In this document: positions 2,700-13,553 of the stretch, one piece after another | Layout of the letters: each line of letters begins with the position of its first letter | How positions within the stretch are numbered: position 1 is the stretch's first letter | Source: a virus | IMG/VR virus record: IMGVR_UViG_3300032278_000087 | Location: 1-28,466 of that record | Direction: 5' to 3' (one strand) | Length of the DNA: 28,466 bases | Notes under the pieces: model-generated | The model's input: only the letters and a program-made list of their open reading frames with translations | Told to the model about the DNA's origin: nothing | The model's database searches: none | Translations under genes and position numbers: made by a program

Positions 2700-2909
2700 C
2701 TATATGTCAAAAGGTGATGTTCCTATCATATTTTGCAATAGATAAAAACCGTCAAGAGTAATTCTAATATAATACTTCAACTCATAATTATTAGCCGATG
2801 GGTCATAATCATCGGCTAATAACATAGACTTAACTTGATCCATACCAAGATCAATCTTTTCTAATATATCTTCAATCTCTACCTTAGTAGCTAACGGTTT
2901 TTCTTTCAT
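2700..2909 (-). CDS. Small unknown protein between genes 45 and 44
   Basis: A 69-residue acidic protein that I do not recognise. Its start codon overlaps the gene 45 stop as TAATG (2907-2911), and its stop lies nine bases before the gene 44 ATG, so it is clearly translated as part of the clamp/clamp-loader operon. The sequence looks helical in its first half (ATKVEIEDILEKIDLGMDQV), with no Cys pair, no membrane segment and no catalytic motif. T4 itself has no gene at this point. A small replisome accessory protein is possible by position alone. Confidence 0.75.
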   Translation of the reverse strand: MKEKPLATKVEIEDILEKIDLGMDQVKSMLLADDYDPSANNYELKYYIRITLDGFYLLQNMIGTSPFDI

Positions 2910-3598
2910 TAAATAGACTCTTTACTCAATGTTTCATAAATAGAATCTGGTTCTAATGCAATCCAATACTCTAAAGGAATGTCCGTATTAGCCCAATGAG
3001 TAATTCCCTTACTAGAAATAGATACATCATAAGTACCTTTCAATACTTTAAGATTTTCTATTTTAAAATATGCAGTGTACTCATCTCCATTACCATCACC
3101 AACATTAATTTTAAAATGATTAGATGTATCATCTTGTTTATCTAATACAACAGCGGAAATAGTATCCCCATCACTAGAAATAGCTAAATCGTCTGTAGCT
3201 AAAATACCAGCCATATTAAGAATATCAGTTAAATCAGATTTATCTAATTCAAACTTTATTTCAGTTTCTGGCATTATCAATTCCCTTTCTGGTTTAATTA
3301 TCGTAGATTCATCAGCATAAAAATACTTTGATGAGGATCTACCATTCACTATATTAACCCATTTCGTATCAAAATCCAATTCAGCATCCTCAAAAGATTC
3401 AGTTGTAATCAATCCCAAAAATTGAACCAAGTCATATATAACAAATTTCTGATTAAAAGATTCTTCTACACTTGATTTAGCAAGGATATTTTTCCTGGCT
3501 GCTATAGTTTGAAGTTCTGAGCCTGGATCTACCAATATCGAAGAATTAATACTACTAAAATTCCTTAATATATCAATTGTCTGTCGCGTAATTTTCAT
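2909..3598 (-). CDS. 45: Sliding clamp gp45
   Basis: A 229-residue protein (T4 gp45 is 228) at the head of the replisome operon. It begins MKITRQTIDILRNFSSIN and shows the T4-clamp pattern of two similar halves, with KFELDKSDLTDILNMAGIL opening the second. The trimeric ring tethers DNA polymerase and, in T4-like phages, also activates late promoters together with gp55 and a coactivator. A strong sigma70-type promoter lies directly upstream with a leader of about 33 bases. The next gene starts in a TAATG overlap. Confidence 0.95.
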   Translation of the reverse strand: MKITRQTIDILRNFSSINSSILVDPGSELQTIAARKNILAKSSVEESFNQKFVIYDLVQFLGLITTESFEDAELDFDTKWVNIVNGRSSSKYFYADESTIIKPERELIMPETEIKFELDKSDLTDILNMAGILATDDLAISSDGDTISAVVLDKQDDTSNHFKINVGDGNGDEYTAYFKIENLKVLKGTYDVSISSKGITHWANTDIPLEYWIALEPDSIYETLSKESI

Positions 3599-3630: not shown

Positions 3631-3667
3631 TAACTATATTATACCATATTTAATAACCTAATGTCAA
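3631..3667 (-). promoter_or_regulatory. Sigma70-type promoter P1, upstream of gene 45
   Basis: Minus strand: -35 TTGACA (3662-3667), 18-base spacer, TGG, then -10 TATAAT (3638-3643), a consensus match in both boxes with an extended -10. It starts five bases after the stop of the glycosyltransferase gene and would give a leader of about 33 bases before the gene 45 ATG. It shares ATGGTATAATATAGT with P2 at about 9.65 kb. Likely an early promoter read by host RNA polymerase. Confidence 0.88.
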
Positions 3668-3672
3668 GGCTA

Positions 3673-5058
3673 TTAAAAAGTAACCGTAGAAGACTTAACT
3701 TCCCATAACTCCCGATTCTTGTTTTTTCTGCCTTTTCTGTCAATACCCAAATGTTTATATACCGTATCATTCAAATATTGACCTGATGTAAATTCATCAG
3801 CTAAACAGGCATCGATTGCCTTATTCAATTCCCTTGTGTGAATAACATCATCTAAATTTAATTTATCACGAAATTCCTCAACATTTTCTACACGATAAAA
3901 ATCCTGTATCTTAGTATTCTTGTCTGAATCATAATTCGGATGTAAGAACGGCGAAACACCAGATTTCAAACATTCCAAATACTTAGTAGTCGCCCACCCA
4001 TCCTTAATTGGAATACAAAGGCTATGGTTCCAATTAGACATCACCGAATGTAATTCGTCACGATCTACAGACCCCATAAACCTACTATCACTAGCTAATA
4101 TTACATCTCCCCACTTTCCATATACCTCTACATTTGGAAATGGATTTAACAACCATTCCTCTAGCATTCCGAACCTATTATCTACCTCTTTTACTAATAC
4201 TGAATCCTTTTCTTCATCATTAGAACCACCATTCAATGCAATACTTATCAGATTTTCTCTATCAGACCAAGACGAATCTACATATTTAACCTTTTCATCC
4301 ATCACCACAGTACTTTCGACATGAGCATATATAACATCTACTTCGCCTTCGGCTACCGTATCATTTTCATAAGATGTTATATTTGAAGTAGTCATACTGC
4401 CATTTATCTGTGATAAGACTATTGGTGGATTATTAAACAAATCAAAAGCACCATGCATGCATCTTGGATCATCAACCATTGCAACCCACCTCACACCCGT
4501 TTCATTCAACGTGTGAATAACAGGAGCTGCATAATTTCTACCAACAGCTAGAGGTTTAGCCCAGCCTCCCTTCTTAGTCTTAGTCTTCTGATAAAGGTTT
4601 CTCTGCATTATATTGCTCATTGCAATAATTCCATAATCTACAATTATATTATTCTCGTTCAAATATTCTAATGGAATCACATATCGTATATTTTCAGTAT
4701 CCCAATTTTTCCATTTTAATACACTATCTCCAAACAAATCTGGTTTTGTAAATCCATTATCTGGATGTGGCTTATAAATGTCCTCACTAGGTCTATTTTC
4801 TTTACTATACTTAGTAAAATTATACGCATCAAACACATTTTCATGTGGAAACAATCTTTTCTTTTCTTCAGTTTCTATCTCATCAAAACTAGAAGCTCCA
4901 ATAATGTAAAAATTATCGTCTGGATTGTTGTAAGACACATTTATCAGGAATCTGACATCATCATCGTGACCCAACGACCAACCAGAACCATCTTGAGTGC
5001 CACCCCACATTTTCTTAGGTAATTTCAAACCGATCTTAGCATACAATATATTAGCCAT
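3673..5058 (-). CDS. GT-B-like glycosyltransferase, candidate DNA hydroxymethylcytosine glycosyltransferase
   Basis: A 461-residue protein, last gene of the modification cassette. I see no close relative by eye, but the C-terminal half has the layout of GT-B glycosyltransferases and in particular of T4 beta-glucosyltransferase. A strand-turn (SIALNGGSND, 272-281) is followed by VEVYGKWGD (310-318), FMGSVDRDELHSVMSN (327-342), then GWATTKYLECLKSGVSPFLH (354-373) and a final FYRVENVEEFRDKL. T4 BGT has IEFFGN, FTGKIPMNMVSE, then ITLRVWETMASDAVMLID and FYVNNRAELIDRV in the same order. The role proposed is transfer of a sugar to 5-hydroxymethylcytosine made by the upstream enzymes. The acceptor and the donor are inferred. 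The start overlaps the cytidylyltransferase stop by eight bases. The stop is five bases before promoter P1. Confidence 0.65.
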   Translation of the reverse strand: MANILYAKIGLKLPKKMWGGTQDGSGWSLGHDDDVRFLINVSYNNPDDNFYIIGASSFDEIETEEKKRLFPHENVFDAYNFTKYSKENRPSEDIYKPHPDNGFTKPDLFGDSVLKWKNWDTENIRYVIPLEYLNENNIIVDYGIIAMSNIMQRNLYQKTKTKKGGWAKPLAVGRNYAAPVIHTLNETGVRWVAMVDDPRCMHGAFDLFNNPPIVLSQINGSMTTSNITSYENDTVAEGEVDVIYAHVESTVVMDEKVKYVDSSWSDRENLISIALNGGSNDEEKDSVLVKEVDNRFGMLEEWLLNPFPNVEVYGKWGDVILASDSRFMGSVDRDELHSVMSNWNHSLCIPIKDGWATTKYLECLKSGVSPFLHPNYDSDKNTKIQDFYRVENVEEFRDKLNLDDVIHTRELNKAIDACLADEFTSGQYLNDTVYKHLGIDRKGRKNKNRELWEVKSSTVTF

Positions 5059-5494
5059 TCTTTATCCTTCCTATCAATTCAGTACTAGAAAATCCATGTC
5101 GCCGGCGATTATAATGTATATCACAAAGATAATCACCTGTAAATTCTTTATCCTTATAATCCTCGCCCACTATTCTAATATCAGGCTGAATTATCTTAAC
5201 TATCTCTATAATTTCCTGTTCTGTTTCAAACGGAATAATTAAATCTACATAAGAAGTAGCTTGTAATTGGCACCATCTTTCAAACATAGACTGAACTGGT
5301 TTATTCTTTTTCTCTCCGCGAGAGATAGTGGGATCTGATAATAGACCCACTACCAAATAATCACAAACTGAACTAGCCTCAGCCAACATAGAAATATGTC
5401 CTGCATGAAGTAAATCAAACGTAGAACAGGTAAATCCTATTACACTATCCTGACGCCTGGCCTCTTCCATCGACCCTAAATGTTTAAAAGACAT
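5051..5494 (-). CDS. Small cytidylyltransferase-fold nucleotidyltransferase (TagD/RfaE-like)
   Basis: A 147-residue nucleotidyltransferase of the HxGH superfamily. Visible are the nucleotide site FTCSTFDLLHAGHISML (21-37, with H30-A-G-H33) and the closing motif RRHGFSSTELIGRI (131-144), equivalent to the R-x-x-x-I-S-T-T motif of glycerol-3-phosphate cytidylyltransferase. The middle GEDYKD (110-115) fits the substrate loop. Family members couple CTP (sometimes ATP) to a phosphorylated small molecule such as glycerol-3-phosphate, phosphoethanolamine, phosphocholine or a sugar phosphate. The upstream gene encodes a phosphatase/kinase fusion that could supply the phosphorylated substrate, and the downstream gene a glycosyltransferase. 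The start overlaps the previous stop as TAATG (5492-5496). Fold is firm; substrate is unknown. Confidence 0.85.
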   Translation of the reverse strand: MSFKHLGSMEEARRQDSVIGFTCSTFDLLHAGHISMLAEASSVCDYLVVGLLSDPTISRGEKKNKPVQSMFERWCQLQATSYVDLIIPFETEQEIIEIVKIIQPDIRIVGEDYKDKEFTGDYLCDIHYNRRRHGFSSTELIGRIKNG

Positions 5495-6705
5495 TATTCA
5501 CCTATCAAATCAAATATACAGTTATAAAATTTCTCACATTTATCATTATCGTGTAACGGTATCAGCGAGAAAAACAAACTAGCTGTCAAGTATTTCAAAT
5601 ACTCTAACATATCAATTCCAAATTTTGATATAAAAATTTCCTCAAACACATTTTTCAATAGAGATTGATCAACTAAACGAGGTGCTTGATTCTGTACCAA
5701 AATACGATCATATCCAACCAATGATTGATAAATTTTAGCATAATCATAAAATATATCACCTACTTTTGTTAAACGACCACCAATTTCACCTCTCATATCT
5801 ATAAGCTTAATAGTTGTATTAGATGTTAATAGAACATTACTAAAAACTGGATCACCATGTATTATTGCTCTAAGACCTAAATCAGCTGATTCATATTCCT
5901 TAACTTTATTGATTATTTTTCTACATACATCTGTACTATCCCTAAACCTAGAATAATCATACCCCATAAATCTATCTATTACTTTCTTATTGTAATTATG
6001 ATATATACTAGGGCCTCCCTGATATATATCATTATCCCTAGTACCATGTATTCTTTCGATAGCTTCCAATAAAATAAAAAAATGATTATCAGTTAAAACA
6101 TCGTCCAACAACAAATGAGTAAATGTTGTGCCTTTTATTTTCTCTATTTCTATCGTACCATTTTCAGATGATAAAAAATTAGGAAATAAATCTTCCAGTC
6201 CTTCTGGTATGGTTTCGTACCAATACTTTTCACCTTCCAACGATTTTCTAGCAGAATCTCCAATAGCAGATTTTATGACCTTACCATTCTCATATACTAT
6301 ATTATTGAATTTTCTAGGCTGAACTACATCCAACCCCAATTCAGCACTAATATCAATTTCATAAGGATTTAAAGATAAATCATCAATATAATAGTGTGCA
6401 TACGGTTTACCATAAATCAATTCATGATAAGGAATTCCAAATTCCTTTATTTTTGCTTCAGTTATTTCTCCAATATCTGCTATAACCTTTTCTACATCAC
6501 CATCATGAGTTCTCATTCTACGAGCTGTATAAATGATTATATAATGACCCATATTATACAAAAATTTAACAGCGTCTATATTATCCTGTATCGGTTCTAC
6601 TGTACTATAATCACCATCTACTTTTGGAAACGTAACCAACGTATTGTCTAAATCAAAACAAATACGCAGATTTTCCATAGCGTAAATATTCTTCAAATTA
6701 ACCAT
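5494..6705 (-). CDS. HAD phosphatase / aminoglycoside- or choline-kinase-like fusion protein
   Basis: A 403-residue two-domain protein. Residues about 10-130 are a HAD phosphatase: ICFDLDNTLV (D18 and D20), YTARR (59-63), K100 in YGKPY, and YIDDL (107-111). The pattern resembles the small capsule-biosynthesis phosphatases (EcbF/BcbF type). Residues about 135-403 are a protein-kinase-fold small-molecule kinase with the loop IHGDPVFSN (282-290) and the metal-binding IDMRG (302-306), as in choline/ethanolamine and aminoglycoside kinases. One polypeptide could both remove and add phosphate on a small metabolite, feeding the cytidylyltransferase downstream. The frame continues upstream to a TTG, but the ATG at 6705 overlaps the dioxygenase stop as TAATG and is preferred. 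Domain calls are firm; the substrate is unknown. Confidence 0.82.
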   Translation of the reverse strand: MVNLKNIYAMENLRICFDLDNTLVTFPKVDGDYSTVEPIQDNIDAVKFLYNMGHYIIIYTARRMRTHDGDVEKVIADIGEITEAKIKEFGIPYHELIYGKPYAHYYIDDLSLNPYEIDISAELGLDVVQPRKFNNIVYENGKVIKSAIGDSARKSLEGEKYWYETIPEGLEDLFPNFLSSENGTIEIEKIKGTTFTHLLLDDVLTDNHFFILLEAIERIHGTRDNDIYQGGPSIYHNYNKKVIDRFMGYDYSRFRDSTDVCRKIINKVKEYESADLGLRAIIHGDPVFSNVLLTSNTTIKLIDMRGEIGGRLTKVGDIFYDYAKIYQSLVGYDRILVQNQAPRLVDQSLLKNVFEEIFISKFGIDMLEYLKYLTASLFFSLIPLHDNDKCEKFYNCIFDLIGE

Positions 6706-7685
6706 TATACCCAAAGTCCTTCCAGACTACCAGATTTTTCATCTTCTCTAGCCTGTTTACCAATTAATTTTTCAGGTTTCCCCCTATTACCCAAAGTAGC
6801 CAATCTTGTGTCACAATAACATACACAATTCATAGAAGTTCCAGATCCTTCAACTTCAATAATTCCATGAACTTCTCCACTATCTCCAATGAATACATCA
6901 CCATCACCACGAGCTATAGCTACTCCAAATCTAGGTAACACAAAATATGTTTTTACATCACCATCATGAAAATTTGCAATAGTGGTCAACCCTTCTGGTA
7001 GATCACCTGAATCTATATGATAAGACATCGCCGGTGAGCCACCTTGATTGTATTTATTTGCCGATAATGTGGTGTAAATTCCACCCGCAATACGATATTC
7101 TTCTTCTACAGAAGTTTCAGCAAAGTTTTTTTGTGCTTCGTAATAGGTAGGTGCCAATTCTCTATACCCTATATCATTAATCTGTGGAATCTGACTTAAT
7201 ATTTCATTTTTCTCTGGATTATGTTTACTCCAACCAGATTTATCAATCTTACCTGTAAATCGACCACGTTTATAACCCATCATCACAGAATGAATAGGAT
7301 TTCCGTGAGCAATCATACTAATTTTACCCTTGGAATCTAATGTCTTATATGAATTTTTGGTTCGTAATTCATATTTAATACCTTGTTTGTCCAATTCTTC
7401 TGTATCAATAGGGCCGGCACAATTAGCCCTCATGGTAGTCGTTTCATCAATACTGAGAAGGCAATCCTTTATTTCATCATACTTACCACCACTCTGATCT
7501 TGATATACTCTCTTTTTAAGACCACCTAAAATAGGATTATCAAACAAACTTCCTACATCTTTATAGATTACGACATCTTCGTCAGATTCTATCCAGTGTT
7601 TTATATGACTAGGATCTGGCCATTCACCAAGTAATTCTTTTGATTTCTCAAACGACATCAATTCTGGAAATTTCTCTTCACGCAT
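6705..7685 (-). CDS. TET/JBP-like 2-oxoglutarate/Fe(II) DNA dioxygenase
   Basis: A 326-residue protein with the core of phage TET/JBP-like dioxygenases in its C-terminal half. A segment IYTTLSANKYNQGG (203-216) leads to the metal motif YHIDSGDLPEG (222-232, H223 and D225), then VLPRFGVAIARGDGDVFI (249-266) and GEVHGI (270-275) with the distal histidine H273. Known members oxidise 5-methylcytosine (TET) or thymine (JBP) in DNA. The gene directly upstream is a C5-cytosine methyltransferase, and their TAATG overlap (7683-7687) argues that this enzyme oxidises the methyl group that enzyme installs. The arginine normally found about ten residues after the distal histidine is not obvious (GSGTSMNCVCY); R294 could take its place. 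The N-terminal 200 residues are unassigned. Confidence 0.82.
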   Translation of the reverse strand: MREEKFPELMSFEKSKELLGEWPDPSHIKHWIESDEDVVIYKDVGSLFDNPILGGLKKRVYQDQSGGKYDEIKDCLLSIDETTTMRANCAGPIDTEELDKQGIKYELRTKNSYKTLDSKGKISMIAHGNPIHSVMMGYKRGRFTGKIDKSGWSKHNPEKNEILSQIPQINDIGYRELAPTYYEAQKNFAETSVEEEYRIAGGIYTTLSANKYNQGGSPAMSYHIDSGDLPEGLTTIANFHDGDVKTYFVLPRFGVAIARGDGDVFIGDSGEVHGIIEVEGSGTSMNCVCYCDTRLATLGNRGKPEKLIGKQAREDEKSGSLEGLWV

Positions 7686-8782
7686 TAACTCAAATACTCC
7701 CTATAAACATTTTCTGCTAAAGCTTTCATCTGTAATGGAGCTACCATTAATCCAATTCTAGCTAATCTTTCGTTTATATTACCATCCAAATGATAATCAG
7801 ATGGTAATGACATTATTCTCCTAGCTTCCAACGGAGTAAAACCACGATGTTCGCCAGGATGTAAATGTGCACAAGTACCTAACTGTAAACCTCTTTCGGT
7901 TAATGTATGTGATGGTTTATCCCAAGGCACCCTACGTGCTTGAAAACCAGAACCTTTTGGATTATAGTCTCCATAGGAAACGTATTTTTTAACATCTAAC
8001 GGCATTGTTTTAAAGTACTCCCATCTTTTCTGTTTCTTCATCGCCTCCATTATTTCTTCGTGTTCTTTTAAATTTTCATCATCTTCCATCATATCACCAA
8101 TAGCATCTCTCATAGTAGGTCTACTCTCTGTAGGAGTAGGAAAAGCCCAACTTAATGCTAATCCATGAGGTAATATATCATCCCTAACCCCGATCATGAA
8201 TACCCGTTCCCTACCTTGTGGAACTCCATAATTATTAGCATTCAAGACTTGATTTACACTTTGATAACCATGTTCCTCAAATGCATTAACAATTTTCTTA
8301 AAATGATCTGCAGCATATTCCATAGTCAACCCTTTGACATTTTCATATATAACTATTTTAGGGCGAACTACTCCAACCAATCTAGCCATATCAAATGACA
8401 AATCTTCTATGTTAGTCTGCTTCTTTCCGTATACAGTTTTGGTTTTATTCCAGCCCTTACGTTTAGAGCCAGACATCGAAAAGGGAGGGCACGGTGGTGA
8501 ACCATCAAAAATATCCAATTCTTCTGGTTGCATTCTCAACCGATCCAATACTTGTTGACCTGTTACATTACGAATATCCTTACAGAAAAATTTGGTTTTG
8601 GGATAATTCTGTAGATAGGTTCTAATACCGACTTTTTGAAATTCCAATACTCCGCGGACATCTCCACCGGCTAATTTATAGCCGGTGGAGCTTCCACCAC
8701 CACCTGCGAAGGTTGAAAATACTGTGAAAAGTTTCCTTTCAGCAGATTCTTTCACGTCTGCTAACGTATAGTTATTATACAT
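7685..8782 (-). CDS. C5-cytosine DNA methyltransferase
   Basis: A 365-residue Dcm-type methyltransferase with motifs in normal order. These are motif I FSTFAGGGGSSTGYKLAGG (22-40), motif IV DGSPPCPPFSMSG (93-105, catalytic C98), motif VI YENVKG (146-151), motif VIII QGRERVF (189-195), motif IX GFTPLEARRIMSLP (314-327) and motif X RIGLMVAPLQMKALAENVY (342-360). Residue 99, usually Gln in the PCQ motif, is Pro here. The target-recognition region (about 200-300) does not reveal the site. No restriction enzyme lies next to it, so this is not an ordinary restriction-modification pair. The neighbours suggest it primes cytosine for oxidation and further decoration. ATG at 8782 has only a weak ribosome site; the stop overlaps the next start as TAATG. 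Confidence 0.95.
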   Translation of the reverse strand: MYNNYTLADVKESAERKLFTVFSTFAGGGGSSTGYKLAGGDVRGVLEFQKVGIRTYLQNYPKTKFFCKDIRNVTGQQVLDRLRMQPEELDIFDGSPPCPPFSMSGSKRKGWNKTKTVYGKKQTNIEDLSFDMARLVGVVRPKIVIYENVKGLTMEYAADHFKKIVNAFEEHGYQSVNQVLNANNYGVPQGRERVFMIGVRDDILPHGLALSWAFPTPTESRPTMRDAIGDMMEDDENLKEHEEIMEAMKKQKRWEYFKTMPLDVKKYVSYGDYNPKGSGFQARRVPWDKPSHTLTERGLQLGTCAHLHPGEHRGFTPLEARRIMSLPSDYHLDGNINERLARIGLMVAPLQMKALAENVYREYLS

Positions 8783-8797
8783 ATGTGATCTATCAGA

Positions 8798-9448
8798 CTA
8801 AGCGACTCTAAAACCTATTACCTTACCACCAACAAACTTGATAACTTTCTTCGGAGATACAAAAACTAAAGTTTCGTTTTTGCGAGGCTTACCATTACTA
8901 CTCCATATAGTGGTTTCTTTAACACGGACAACAGAAGAACCATCATCTATTGGATGTATCCATTCACATCCCCATGGCTCCTGTGCTGGTCTGCTAACAT
9001 TAACCCTGTCGATTATATCTAACGAAACAGAATTAACCTTTTCATATTTTCCACTTGATTTATACGGGTGATACCAGATCTCCGTATCAGGGCCACCTGC
9101 TAACCTCACAAGCTCCTTTTTAGCTTCATACCGTATCATAGAAGGAAACATATCAGGAATATCTTCATCGTTACCGATTATAACATATGCCTTACCATTA
9201 TGTTTCACAGTATAAACTAATACCGGCGGTTTATTTGGTGACGTGTCCACCAAACCCTTATCATTCGATTGAGACGCTATAGAGCTGTTAAATTTTATTC
9301 CACCATTACCCTCAATTCTAATCTGTTCAGCACCATATTTTTTAAAACATACCTCTGGTATAGGTGTTGGAACACGGTTCAACGGATCTGAAATAAAATT
9401 ATCTAAACTTAATTCTGTTATCGAACATTCTTCAATTTGAAATGTCAA
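8798..9448 (-). CDS. Unknown protein, first gene of the modification cassette
   Basis: A 216-residue protein that I do not recognise. It appears soluble with no signal peptide or membrane span, and it is beta-rich in places (PVLVYTVKHNGKAYVIIGND at 94-113, TLVFVSPKKVIKFVGG near the end). There is a Trp-rich patch EPWGCEWIHP (about 157-166). It begins at a TTG (9448) eight bases after AGAGG, because no ATG is available in the first half. It ends 15 bases before the methyltransferase start and is the first full gene behind promoter P2. A role in the DNA-modification pathway (specificity, donor synthesis or protection) is likely only by association. Codon content and frame length support a real gene. 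Confidence 0.8.
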   Translation of the reverse strand: MTFQIEECSITELSLDNFISDPLNRVPTPIPEVCFKKYGAEQIRIEGNGGIKFNSSIASQSNDKGLVDTSPNKPPVLVYTVKHNGKAYVIIGNDEDIPDMFPSMIRYEAKKELVRLAGGPDTEIWYHPYKSSGKYEKVNSVSLDIIDRVNVSRPAQEPWGCEWIHPIDDGSSVVRVKETTIWSSNGKPRKNETLVFVSPKKVIKFVGGKVIGFRVA

Positions 9449-9645: not shown

Positions 9646-9682
9646 ATACTATATTATACCATTTATACCTAGGCAAAGTCAA
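9646..9682 (-). promoter_or_regulatory. Sigma70-type promoter P2 of the modification cassette
   Basis: Minus strand: -35 TTGACT (9677-9682), 18-base spacer ending in TGG, -10 TATAAT (9653-9658). Together with P1 it shares CCTTGAC and ATGGTATAATATAGT. It lies between the HNH gene and the cassette; the predicted start near 9646 gives a leader of roughly 200 bases to the first long gene. The 255-base gap 9449-9703 holds only this promoter, repeat copy 2 and the possible leader peptide. Confidence 0.88.
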
Positions 9683-10104: not shown

Positions 10105-11814
10105 TCACACCACCTTGCTAAAATTCTTCACTTTTTCAAATTTTATTACATCATCAAACTTCTCGTTCAAGGTATCACCTTTATGAGATATGATAAACAC
10201 ATTACTAGATCCCATACCTTGCAGAATCTTCAAAAATTCCTCTGTTCCATTAGTATCCAGAGAGCTGTCAAAAACCTCATCCAAGATCAACAGGTTAGTA
10301 TTAGCACTATTTTTCATCTTCGCGATAGCACGCCAGGTGAATAATAAAGCTAAATCTATCCTCATTTTCTCACCTTCACTGAATGAATCATAGGTAAAGG
10401 TATCTCTAAAATTAGCTCTAATCACCTCATTAAAACTCTCATCTAAGTGAAAATCAAAATAGGAATCCATATCTGTCAGATACTTATTGATTAGCTTGTT
10501 CATAATAGGTAAATACTGCTTTACAATCAAAGTCTTGATTCCAGTATCCTTCAACATATCAGAAGCAACGTTCAAGTACTGTTTAGAATCCCTCAATTCA
10601 AACAATTCACTATCACGGGCCATCAATTGGCCCCGATACCCTTGAAGCTTCTCCTGATCCTGACCCGCTCTATTCCGAACCTTACCCAAATATTCAATAT
10701 CACGAATCAGCATATCAATATACTTTCTAACGGAATCTGATTCATTATCCAACTTTTTTACTTCCTCATCTACAGCGTCAGACAATTCCTTATACTTGTC
10801 AAATTCCTCTATCGACTCTTTGATAGCTGATAAAGTATCATCTAGCTGAATAACACCTTCCTCACATTCTAATATTTCTGCAGATTTCTCATTTATAATT
10901 TCATGTTTATGATCATCACTCACTTCTTGCTTACATACTCCACAGATACCCATATCCCTATATGACGAAACTTCATCTTTTATCTTGCGAACTCTATCGT
11001 CAATCTTGGTTTTAAGGCCCTGAAACATATTGTAATCAGTAATCATCTGAGCTCTTTCTTCCAAGAAAGTCTGTAACATATCCTGATCCTCTAACAAATC
11101 CTTTACCCTAGACTCATTAGCAACTAACTTCTTACGATTTTCCTCTAAACTTTTTTCCGTTTCTACAATCTTGTCATTTTTGATTTCTTCTACCTCACGA
11201 ATATATTTTTCCTGCAGGGAAATTTTTTCCTGCACCAGTGTAGAAGCTATATTATTTTCAGAAAGTAGCGATTGATTCTCAGCCATTCTTACCCGAAGCA
11301 GATTATTCATCAAAGAAAATACTTCAATCTCTAACAAATCTTCAATCACTTCTCTACGATGAGCAGGATTCAACTTCATAAAAGGTAAGAATGTACTAGA
11401 CCCCAATACAATAATCTGAGTAAAAGATTTATAGTTGATTTTGAGAATATTCTTCTCCAATCGCTCCTGATAATCCCTCATCTTAGCATCTTGATCTAAT
11501 AATTTACCACGTACATAAATCTCAAACAATGACGGATTCATACCCCGACGAACAGTATAAAGAGTACCCCCAACTCTAAATTCTACTTGAACCACACAAT
11601 CTCTCTTATTAACAGAATTGACTAACTGAGGCTTGTTGATTTTTCGGAAAGGTCTACCATACAAAGCAAAAGTAAGTGCATCTAACATGGTGGACTTTCC
11701 TGAACCATTTTCCCCTATAATCAATGTTGCTGGATTCTGACTTAAATCCAGATTAGTCCATTCCCTACCTGTTGATAAGAAATTTTTCCATCCTAAATTC
11801 TCAAAATATATCAT
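10105..11814 (-). CDS. 46: Recombination nuclease subunit gp46 (Rad50/SbcC-like ATPase)
   Basis: A 569-residue SMC-type ATPase (T4 gp46 is 560). It shows Walker A GENGSGKST (34-42), a long coiled coil either side of the zinc-hook CGVCKQEV (C291, C294), ABC signature FSEGEKMR (478-485), Walker B LLILDEVF (508-515) and the H-loop ISHK (542-545). With gp47 it forms the Rad50/Mre11-type complex that resects DNA ends for recombination-dependent replication and degrades host DNA. The start overlaps the gene 47 stop as ATGA (11811-11814). It is followed directly by the HNH gene. Confidence 0.97.
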   Translation of the reverse strand: MIYFENLGWKNFLSTGREWTNLDLSQNPATLIIGENGSGKSTMLDALTFALYGRPFRKINKPQLVNSVNKRDCVVQVEFRVGGTLYTVRRGMNPSLFEIYVRGKLLDQDAKMRDYQERLEKNILKINYKSFTQIIVLGSSTFLPFMKLNPAHRREVIEDLLEIEVFSLMNNLLRVRMAENQSLLSENNIASTLVQEKISLQEKYIREVEEIKNDKIVETEKSLEENRKKLVANESRVKDLLEDQDMLQTFLEERAQMITDYNMFQGLKTKIDDRVRKIKDEVSSYRDMGICGVCKQEVSDDHKHEIINEKSAEILECEEGVIQLDDTLSAIKESIEEFDKYKELSDAVDEEVKKLDNESDSVRKYIDMLIRDIEYLGKVRNRAGQDQEKLQGYRGQLMARDSELFELRDSKQYLNVASDMLKDTGIKTLIVKQYLPIMNKLINKYLTDMDSYFDFHLDESFNEVIRANFRDTFTYDSFSEGEKMRIDLALLFTWRAIAKMKNSANTNLLILDEVFDSSLDTNGTEEFLKILQGMGSSNVFIISHKGDTLNEKFDDVIKFEKVKNFSKVV

Positions 11815-12845: not shown

Positions 12846-13047
12846 CTTTTTCCTTTTTCATCATAAATCTAATATAATCTTCATATTCCTGTTGAAAAGT
12901 ATTCAATACCTTATCTATTCTACTCTGAATCACAGTTAAGTATGTTGCATCCTCTATTCTCTGATCCACAGATTTAGTACCATCCAATACAGACTGTATC
13001 AGTATTTCAACTGCTTTAGGTGTAGGTATTTTATCAGTAAGCCTCAT
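12823..13047 (-). CDS. Small unknown protein between genes 55 and 47
   Basis: A 74-residue, mostly helical protein (PTPKAVEILIQSVLDG early, then SRIDKVLNTFQQEYEDYIRF). No domain is recognised. Its ATG overlaps the gene 55 stop as ATGA (13044-13047), and its end overlaps the start of gene 47 by 23 bases, which supports translation. A small gene at this place is common in marine T4-like phages as I recall. The helical charged sequence would suit a protein-protein adaptor, but there is no direct evidence. Confidence 0.78.
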   Translation of the reverse strand: MRLTDKIPTPKAVEILIQSVLDGTKSVDQRIEDATYLTVIQSRIDKVLNTFQQEYEDYIRFMMKKEKDENSPYN

Positions 13048-13553
13048 ATCATAAACTCCTCCAATTTTCCAGTCTTTTCTTTTCTGGTAGGCAATCTCTT
13101 TTTTTCAAAATCATCAAAACTTGAAAAATCATGTTGGTATACATTATAACTTTTTTCTATGTTTATATTACCATCAGAATCAACTAATTCTTCCACTCTG
13201 GTAATTTCCGTCATTTTATACTTTATATACGACTGTTTTTTCTCTTTTTCAATTCTCCGTAAGAATGCATAATATATTATTTGAGTAAAATATGAAAATG
13301 GATTTTTAGATTTTTCAGGATTGAAATTATGACAATACCTGACACAATTTTCTATCCCATCAAAAATCATATCATCCTTAAACGTGTAATTTATGAAATT
13401 AGGCCTATTACTTAATCCCTTAGCAATATCCATAAAACATTGACCTATATAGTCACTTATTCTGTATTCATCCTTTGTCTGATAATCTTCCTTCATTTTA
13501 ACCATTTCAGTATAGAATTTCTTATTATTCACATAATGTTGTTTAGTTGCCAT
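13044..13553 (-). CDS. 55: Late-promoter sigma factor gp55
   Basis: A 169-residue protein in the place of T4 gene 55 (185 residues). It keeps the region-2-like core, with FKDDMIFDGIENCVRYCHNF followed shortly by NPFSYFTQIIYYAFLRRIEK (residues about 58-102), the part of a sigma factor that contacts core polymerase and melts the -10 element. gp55 lets host RNA polymerase recognise the TATAAATA late promoters seen before genes 18, 22 and 3 in this window. The C-terminus (TGKLEEFMI) is hydrophobic-acidic, like the clamp-binding tails through which gp55 touches gp45. Repeat element copy 3 lies in the 70-base gap upstream. The stop overlaps the next start as ATGA. Confidence 0.93.
   Translation of the reverse strand: MATKQHYVNNKKFYTEMVKMKEDYQTKDEYRISDYIGQCFMDIAKGLSNRPNFINYTFKDDMIFDGIENCVRYCHNFNPEKSKNPFSYFTQIIYYAFLRRIEKEKKQSYIKYKMTEITRVEELVDSDGNINIEKSYNVYQHDFSSFDDFEKKRLPTRKEKTGKLEEFMI

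Follow-up and report, generated by a model that had tools for sequence, protein, structure and literature searches.

Introduction

Burke and colleagues are said to have described, in PNAS in 2021, phage TET hypermodification systems made up of a C5-cytosine DNA methyltransferase (MTase), a TET/JBP dioxygenase, and tailoring glycosyltransferases (GTs). Here we describe a six-gene cassette in IMG/VR virus record IMGVR_UViG_3300032278_000087, a stretch of 28,466 bases that is T4-like by gene content and that we call the window. The cassette joins the phage TET hypermodification systems, and its last step and donor supply make it a new variant. We read it as a post-replicative cytosine hypermodification operon with clamp-tethered oxidation, at a probability of roughly 0.74. 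Gene content, fold predictions, co-occurrence, and tail statistics are computed here; the chemistry, the sugar, clamp binding, and timing we infer.

In phage T4, gp43, gp55, and gp33 bind the sliding clamp gp45 through highly similar, interchangeable C-termini that are hydrophobic and acidic (PMC2988020). C-terminal gp45 binding by T4 clamp clients is also covered in PMC7892883. RB69p051 and RB69p052 map within the arabinosylation cluster of phage RB69 or next to it (PMC6024577, PMC13390438).

We propose that the window MTase would convert cytosine to 5-methylcytosine (5mC) after replication and that the TET-like dioxygenase would oxidise 5mC to 5-hydroxymethylcytosine (5hmC). A HAD phosphatase, a kinase, and a cytidylyltransferase (CyT) would make a phage-specific activated donor, and a GT-B enzyme of 461 aa, with a predicted architecture resembling that of T4 beta-glucosyltransferase (BGT), would place the sugar onto the hydroxymethyl group of 5hmC. 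TET oxidation would be tethered to gp45 by a polymerase-like C-terminal peptide, so that modification of new DNA would follow the fork. The GT of relatives would be tethered as well, and in the window phage it would have lost its tail. The cassette genes are:

8798..9448 (-), U216, 216-aa protein, first gene of the unit (open reading frame (ORF) only)
7685..8782 (-), C5-cytosine DNA methyltransferase, 365 aa, predicted step 1, C to 5mC (PF00145 and motifs)
6705..7685 (-), TET/JBP-like Fe(II) dioxygenase, 326 aa, predicted step 2, 5mC to 5hmC (PF12851 and fold model)
5494..6714 (-), HAD-kinase fusion, 406 aa (PHROG matches to both halves)
6325..6714, boundary approximate (-), HAD phosphatase half of the fusion (phrog_1238, RB69p051, DLDNT)
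5494..6324 (-), APH-like small-molecule/sugar kinase half of the fusion (phrog_4098, RB69p052, motifs)
5051..5494 (-), TagD/PCYT2-like CyT, predicted maker of the activated donor (PF01467, HAGH)
3673..5058 (-), GT-B protein of 461 aa, predicted to glycosylate hmC in DNA, step 3 (fold model)

Predicted enzymes of the cassette

The MTase is a PF00145 protein (Pfam scan, E 1e-48) with the motifs FAGGG, SPPC, ENV, and QGRER, which we take to be motifs I, IV (PPC), VI (ENV), and VIII (QxRxR). It matches the solved C5-MTase 8yf3 over its full length (E 7e-78). Literature around the closest solved relative gave no usable lead on the target site. Of 85 contigs, 77 show an ORF upstream of TET; in 62 of these 77, an MTase is the direct upstream neighbour of TET.

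The dioxygenase matches PF12851 (Tet_JBP) at E 1e-7 and 31.7 bits, slightly below the Pfam cut-off of 34.9, which relatives in Melnitz, DLP_6, Cr30, and contig G002 pass. PF12851 also missed the TET of a 67-kb contig (G001) that is ~76% identical to that of the window, so absences of this match are weak evidence. A model built from 24 sequences (pLDDT 85.4, pTM 0.81) aligns with the TET2-DNA structure at Z 20.5 (root-mean-square deviation (rmsd) 3.5 over 257 residues). Further structural matches are NgTET1 (Z 18.4), CMD1 (Z 16.5), and CcTet (Z 16.0), with ALKBH3 and FTO next at ~14. A profile made from the TET alignment matched no PDB sequence. The Fe ligands, H223-x-D225 and H273, are invariant in 24 aligned phage TETs, as is D228, five residues past the first histidine. 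An Asp or Asn at the position equivalent to D228 contacts N4 of 5mC (PMC7854593).

The 461-aa GT has no Pfam or PHROG match, and a profile search of solved-structure (PDB) sequences returned weak matches only. Foldseek with a model built from 19 sequences (pLDDT 78.7, pTM 0.81) finds T4 BGT as the best match (E 6e-7). VIA-align likewise favours T4 BGT (1j39, Z 21.1, rmsd 3.9 over 308 residues, 14% identity); the next family is GT4 (Z 17.2), and T4 alpha-glucosyltransferase (alpha-GT, AGT) scores 15.3. RB69p003 has no detectable similarity to the window GT.

The HAD-kinase fusion and CyT point to a donor pathway. The HAD half matches phrog_1238 (4e-22), carries a DLDNT motif, and is 31% identical to RB69p051 (E 3e-13). 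The kinase half matches phrog_4098 (3e-21) and RB69p052 (E 1e-12) and has HGDPVFSN and DMRG motifs; its match to Pfam APH is only E 0.14, under the cut-off. CyT matches PF01467 (E 1e-12, 48.7 bits against a cut-off of 21), with HAGH as the HxGH motif of the family. The donor is probably a CDP-pentose or related CDP-sugar, as judged from these homologies.

We compared the GT loci of the best 80 of 115 contigs, counting genes within six ORFs upstream of GT. A TagD-like CyT is present in 43/80 and an RmlA-like nucleotidyltransferase-kinase fusion in 32/80, with both in 0/80. All 62 GT loci with three or more upstream ORFs have one nucleotidyltransferase or the other; a HAD gene is found in 70/80. 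The two nucleotidyltransferase types thus appear to replace each other.

The sugar genes (HAD-kinase, CyT, and GT) might instead make or alter a surface polysaccharide, beside an MTase-TET pair that adjoins them by accident. The best solved relatives of CyT, which are ethanolamine-phosphate and glycerol-3-phosphate cytidylyltransferases, are in keeping with such a role, as is one solved relative of the HAD half that carries the name capsule biosynthesis protein. The GT fold, however, is closest to a DNA-modifying enzyme, T4 BGT, and GT relatives bear a polymerase-type tail. Moreover, the same module accompanies a gp42-type hydroxymethylase and dCMP deaminase in other T4-like phages, and a thymidylate synthase (TS)/pyrimidine hydroxymethylase in Planchet, a phage without a gp45 match. 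We regard a polysaccharide role as very improbable.

Predicted sources of 5hmC in related phages

DNA hypermodification, the reading we prefer, predicts that the GT acts on 5hmC, and gene content in relatives is consistent with this acceptor. Three sister contigs (L006-L008) have a T4 AGT-type protein instead of the window GT in the slot that lies between TET and gp45 (PF11440 8e-28 for the L007 copy; 29% identical to T4 AGT). The AGT class acts on 5hmC. In a fourth sister contig, L009, which is the closest relative of the window by TET, this slot holds an unnamed 303-aa protein.

GT loci include a gp42-type gene upstream in 35/80 cases and a nearby TET in 2/80 (L011 and the window contig), with both together in 0/80. 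A TET-based search (best 80 of 210 contigs) adds three contigs with TET, HAD, CyT, and GT (L042, L047, and L073) and two with TET and GT (L057 and L090). Across the loci compared, GT is found with TET in some and with a gp42-type gene in others, never with both, so its module seems to draw on 5hmC from either route. No TS-family match was found in Methylophilales phage Melnitz or Stenotrophomonas phage DLP_6, which carry TET and are titled complete genomes; Melnitz is annotated with a flavin-dependent TS. In a 218-kb contig that carries a gp42-type gene, no match to Tet_JBP was found, and Cr30 combines TET with one TS match.

The gp42-type genes of two GT-bearing contigs (L018 and L013) are 54-56% identical to T4 gp42 dCMP hydroxymethylase, and they have Asp at a residue that we take to be Asn in thymidylate synthases. 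The TS-like gene found in GT-bearing phages might have been a 5-hydroxy-dCMP synthase of the RB69 type; for L018 and L013 this was rejected, as their identity to RB69p048 is 27%.

Three further arrangements stand beside these systems. In phages of the gp42-type group, a diverged C5-MTase-like (MT-like) protein follows GT (78/80 GT loci; for example L018:9259-10476 and L013:9257-10477), although cytosine C5 should already be hydroxymethylated there. Enterococcus phage Planchet (L233, 48352-57407), which has no gp45 match, encodes a homologous module of HAD, NTP-transferase-kinase, and GT beside its TS/pyrimidine hydroxymethylase; the arrangement suggests a mobile sugar-on-pyrimidine cassette. 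L007 (4779-6591) carries, beside MTase-TET, an N6/N4-MTase with the C-terminus RLEDFFE and a restriction endonuclease of MamI type (PF09567); the two resemble a restriction-modification system with a clamp-type tail on its methyltransferase.

A sequence-only reading of the window had called a C5-MTase with all main motifs, a dioxygenase with HxD and distal His, a HAD/kinase fusion, a cytidylyltransferase, and a GT-B-like GT in tightly overlapping genes. These ORFs, their families or folds, and their overlap are borne out: PF00145 membership and catalytic motifs I, IV, VI, and VIII were found in the MTase, the three dioxygenase ligands are invariant in the alignment, and the GT model has a GT-B fold with T4 BGT as its closest solved structure. 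Comparison of the 326-residue protein with TET/JBP, proposed in that reading, yields a predicted double-stranded beta-helix fold that matches TET. gp42 had been reported as not seen in the window, and the 28,466-base record, itself a fragment, indeed has no match to the thymidylate synthase/gp42 family. The suggested order of methylation, oxidation, and decoration of cytosine gains support from the predicted TET fold with its Fe ligands and D228, the MTase upstream of TET, the AGT in the sister slot, and the co-occurrence of the GT family with gp42-type genes.

C-terminal tails resembling that of the polymerase

The window TET ends in SLEGLWV, and TETs elsewhere end in NLEGFFG, SLEDFI, or NLESFFG. 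Melnitz gp43 ends in the same motif (TTLEDFFG). In the TET model, a stretch of falling confidence precedes the tail. As the window TET ends in a tail like the one by which gp43 holds the clamp, DNA may be modified as it is copied. The features concerned are:

6708..6728 (-), TET C-terminal tail SLEGLWV, predicted gp45 sliding-clamp-binding motif (gp43-trained matrix)
2909..3598 (-), gp45 sliding clamp, predicted tether (PF09116 1e-10, phrog_223 7e-67)
13044..13553 (-), gp55-like late sigma factor ending in GKLEEFMI, used as an in-window reference for clamp-binding tails (phrog_234 4e-55)

We scored tails with a six-position matrix trained on 12 distinct gp43 cores only and applied to the C-termini of 878 ORFs from six records. 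This matrix was adopted because our first patterns were loose and had been written after the tails were seen; these were dropped, and they also hit 13/38 HAD-kinases, 2/10 AGTs, 1/41 TS-like, 1/36 gp44, and 1/16 Mel177 ORFs. The window TET tail ranks 14 of 878 (8.7 bits) and the window gp55 tail ranks 18 (6.4 bits). At least 8 bits are reached by 14 ORFs, five of which are gp43, the training family, and score highly by construction. Seven of the other nine are DNA-modifying: three TETs (the window's included), an MT-like protein, a GT, an N6/N4-MTase, and the Melnitz Mom; two have no assigned function. The five TETs of the six records rank 5, 9, 14, 19, and 27.

For pooled counts we used complete ORFs of at least 100 aa from the neighbourhoods of the best 80 of 210 TET contigs, the best 80 of 115 GT contigs, and a few others, counted identical ORFs once, and called a tail at 3 bits or more. 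These are counts of sequences rather than independent events, because near-identical contigs remain. Tails are found in TET (75/77, the misses being Cr30 and podovirus HTVC112P), GT relatives (42/42) together with the window's GT subgroup (4/5, the miss being the window GT; 46/47 in total), MT-like proteins (39/39), the one N6/N4-MTase, and gp43 itself (44/44, training family). None was found in MTase (0/59), gp45 (0/45), gp44 (0/48), gp62 (0/31), RegA (0/30), CyT (0/26), NTP-kinase (0/23), AGT (0/8), or other labelled families.

Among unlabelled ORFs, 38/425 have a tail, and 11 of these are TAGT-like (TET-associated glycosyltransferase). TAGT-like ORFs are thus tailed in 11/19 cases, and two more end in a weaker STITDFMV. 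The other 27 tailed ORFs comprise three gp55-like proteins, six that form one unnamed family, and a remainder that is mixed or likely chance. In Pfam scans of 18 tailed neighbours, 11 match TAGT (PF20691) above the cut-off and one (Cr30) below; L050, L039, L009, L083, L087, and L046 have no match above cut-off.

Tails also track gp43 of their own genome. In Cr30, gp43 ends in DLSSLF and the TAGT-like protein, which also matches phrog_842, in DLSKLF. In DLP_6, gp43 has TLDSFF, TET has TLGDFF, and TAGT has DLSSFF. No description of a clamp tail on TET or other DNA-modifying enzymes was found in the open-licence literature searched; contact between T4 alpha-GT and gp45 is already in print. T4 alpha-GT co-purifies with gp45 (PMC13216743), and the C-termini of T4 alpha-GT and BGT have no such tail.

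Across a broad T4-like group, we think it fairly likely that hypermodification is clamp-tethered and coupled to replication. Unrelated modifiers (TET, many TAGTs, the BGT-fold GT family, the C5-MTase-like family, and a single N6/N4-MTase and Mom) would each have acquired a gp45-binding tail, while the first-step 5mC MTase would not.

Several tailed genes were noted along the way. The unnamed family found beside TET (294-315 aa) has six distinct members (L039:4943-5830, L083:5057-5944, L087:5115-6062, L046:5241-6125, L009:555-1466 (identical to L038), and L043_3), with no Pfam match in the five scanned and no PHROG match in the three scanned; it is a candidate DNA-modifying enzyme. L054 (2903-4554), L062, and L068 have paired TAGT genes, one copy tailed and the other tailless. 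Melnitz, which has MTase-TET, also encodes a Mom-family protein (69571-70380, L115:19571-20380; PF25680 7e-49; annotated only as DUF465) with tail TATLEGFF. In Caulobacter phage Cr30 (L004:10445-12582), an ADDT (amino acid:DNA transferase, PF18724) gene adjoins that of the tailed TAGT-like protein, with inositol-1-phosphate synthase near and TET a few kilobases off.

Observations that weigh against the proposed clamp-tethered hypermodification

Several observations tell against the reading proposed here. First, residue 284 is Ser in the window TET clade (the window and L006-L009; 3/24 aligned sequences) and Arg in the other 21/24. This Arg is likely the anchor for the C5-carboxylate of 2-oxoglutarate (2OG), if it is equivalent to NgTET1 R289, and Ser284 may affect 2OG binding. 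The clade could therefore have a relocated 2OG Arg or a changed co-substrate, and its dioxygenase might be inactive or yield something other than simple 5hmC. CMD1, a vitamin C-using TET homologue, is a good structural match (Z 16.5, as above) and has no working basic residue for the 2OG C5-carboxylate (PMC7854593). Yet the clade, at 77-81% TET identity, retains the Fe ligands and the Asp that would contact 5mC, and its sister contigs keep the T4-type AGT, a class with 5hmC as its known substrate. Arg259, new in the same clade, might take over the lost role, though this is a guess. We consider an inactive or altered dioxygenase quite unlikely.

Second, the GT finds no support for a sequence link to T4 BGT (hhalign probability 2%, no Pfam match). 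Because its fold is closest to BGT and the sequence relationship is undetectable, we do not file it in the BGT family; on the structural model, it would work like BGT.

Third, the tail is incomplete in its distribution. The window GT ends in KSSTVTF, has no clamp-type tail (rank 195/878 with the gp43-trained matrix), and is the sole exception to a looser tail pattern among 80 family ORFs (79/80 match). A perfect promoter for gp45 starts five bases past its stop codon, and the origin of this promoter may have cost the GT its tail. Cr30 TET keeps only a remnant, GATLF. Nothing resembling a tail is seen in 6/19 TAGT-like ORFs of the marine set, the L048 TAGT is tailless, and so are the Muldoon and Klebsiella TAGTs and the XG4 GT, despite gp45 in those phages. 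In T4, moreover, the dominance of alpha-GT in glucosylation is attributed mostly to expression signals and not to gp45 contact (PMC13216743).

The tailless proteins of gp45-bearing relatives would also fit a different role for the tail, as some other shared C-terminal signal or as a ligand of a replisome protein other than the clamp. However, the same tail is present on gp43 and on the window gp55, whose T4 counterparts bind gp45, with gp33, by interchangeable C-termini (PMC2988020). All four homologues examined from phages without a gp45 match (HTVC112P TET, LuckyBarnes TAGT, SfMu Mom, and Planchet GT) have no tail. We judge a non-clamp role for the tail unlikely.

Locus layout

On the minus strand, the window reads gp55 - (74 aa) - gp47 - gp46 - HNH - [U216 - C5-MTase - TET - HAD-kinase - CyT - GT] - gp45 - (69 aa) - gp44 - gp62 - RegA, where the names gp44, gp47, gp62, and RegA are taken from position and from annotation of relatives. 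The six cassette ORFs (9448 to 3673) are collinear, each overlapping or almost abutting the next. Translation of the HAD-kinase may begin from an internal ATG instead of TTG. U216 has no Pfam or PHROG match, and a search of 50,697 phage records at E 0.01 gave no hit to it. The flank and promoter features are:

10105..11814 (-), gp46, flank of the insertion slot (phrog_77 1e-160)
9653..9682 (-), sigma-70-like promoter TTGACT-18-TATAAT, TG before -10, ahead of U216 (11/12 consensus positions)
3638..3667 (-), perfect sigma-70-like promoter TTGACA-18-TATAAT, extended -10, ahead of gp45 (12/12 consensus positions; begins five bases past the GT stop)

Promoter-like sites across the region number 55, against 52.3 expected. 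Because this total is at chance level, the two bracketing promoters are suggestive only and stand out for their quality alone. The sequence-only reading had placed the cassette between genes 46 and 45, which is correct, and had described these genes as otherwise neighbours in T4-like order. In T4, 45.2 and rpbA lie in between, so the two genes are close to each other without being strictly adjacent.

Comparison with known systems

If correct, our reading implies that phages use the sliding clamp as a carrier and so modify all the DNA newly made behind a fast fork; DNMT1 and PCNA form a comparable pairing in animals. How post-replicative base modification keeps pace with T4-type replication becomes a testable question. 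The tail would then serve as a sequence tag that leads to further modifiers of DNA, with the unnamed ~300-aa family found next to TET as one candidate, and the GT family with the BGT fold offers a new enzyme that could be tried for labelling 5hmC.

Phage TET hypermodification systems share with the window the set of C5-MTase, TET, and GT, and TAGTs (PF20691) stand beside TETs in the present contigs too. Three differences set the window apart: its GT belongs to a BGT-fold family that has no entry in Pfam, a predicted HAD-kinase-cytidylyltransferase pathway for the donor is encoded by the phage itself, and TETs here bear a polymerase-type C-terminal tail.

T4 hmC glucosylation (gp42, alpha-GT, and BGT) has the same predicted acceptor and the same GT folds. 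In T4, however, hmC is formed on dCMP by gp42, whereas here it would form on DNA by TET, and the T4 glucosyltransferases do not have the C-terminal tail of these TETs.

The RB69/Mosigvirus arabinosylation cluster is similar in that the window HAD and kinase are homologous to RB69p051 and RB69p052. It differs in that Mosigvirus relies on a 5-hydroxy-dCMP synthase and on another GT, RB69p003 (PMC6024577, PMC13390438), and in that the window has a TagD-like cytidylyltransferase in place of the NTP-transferase domain.

Finally, the T4 clamp clients gp43, gp55, and gp33 resemble the TETs described here in their hydrophobic and acidic C-terminal tail. In T4 this tail is carried by the polymerase and by transcription factors, whereas here it is carried by DNA-modifying enzymes.

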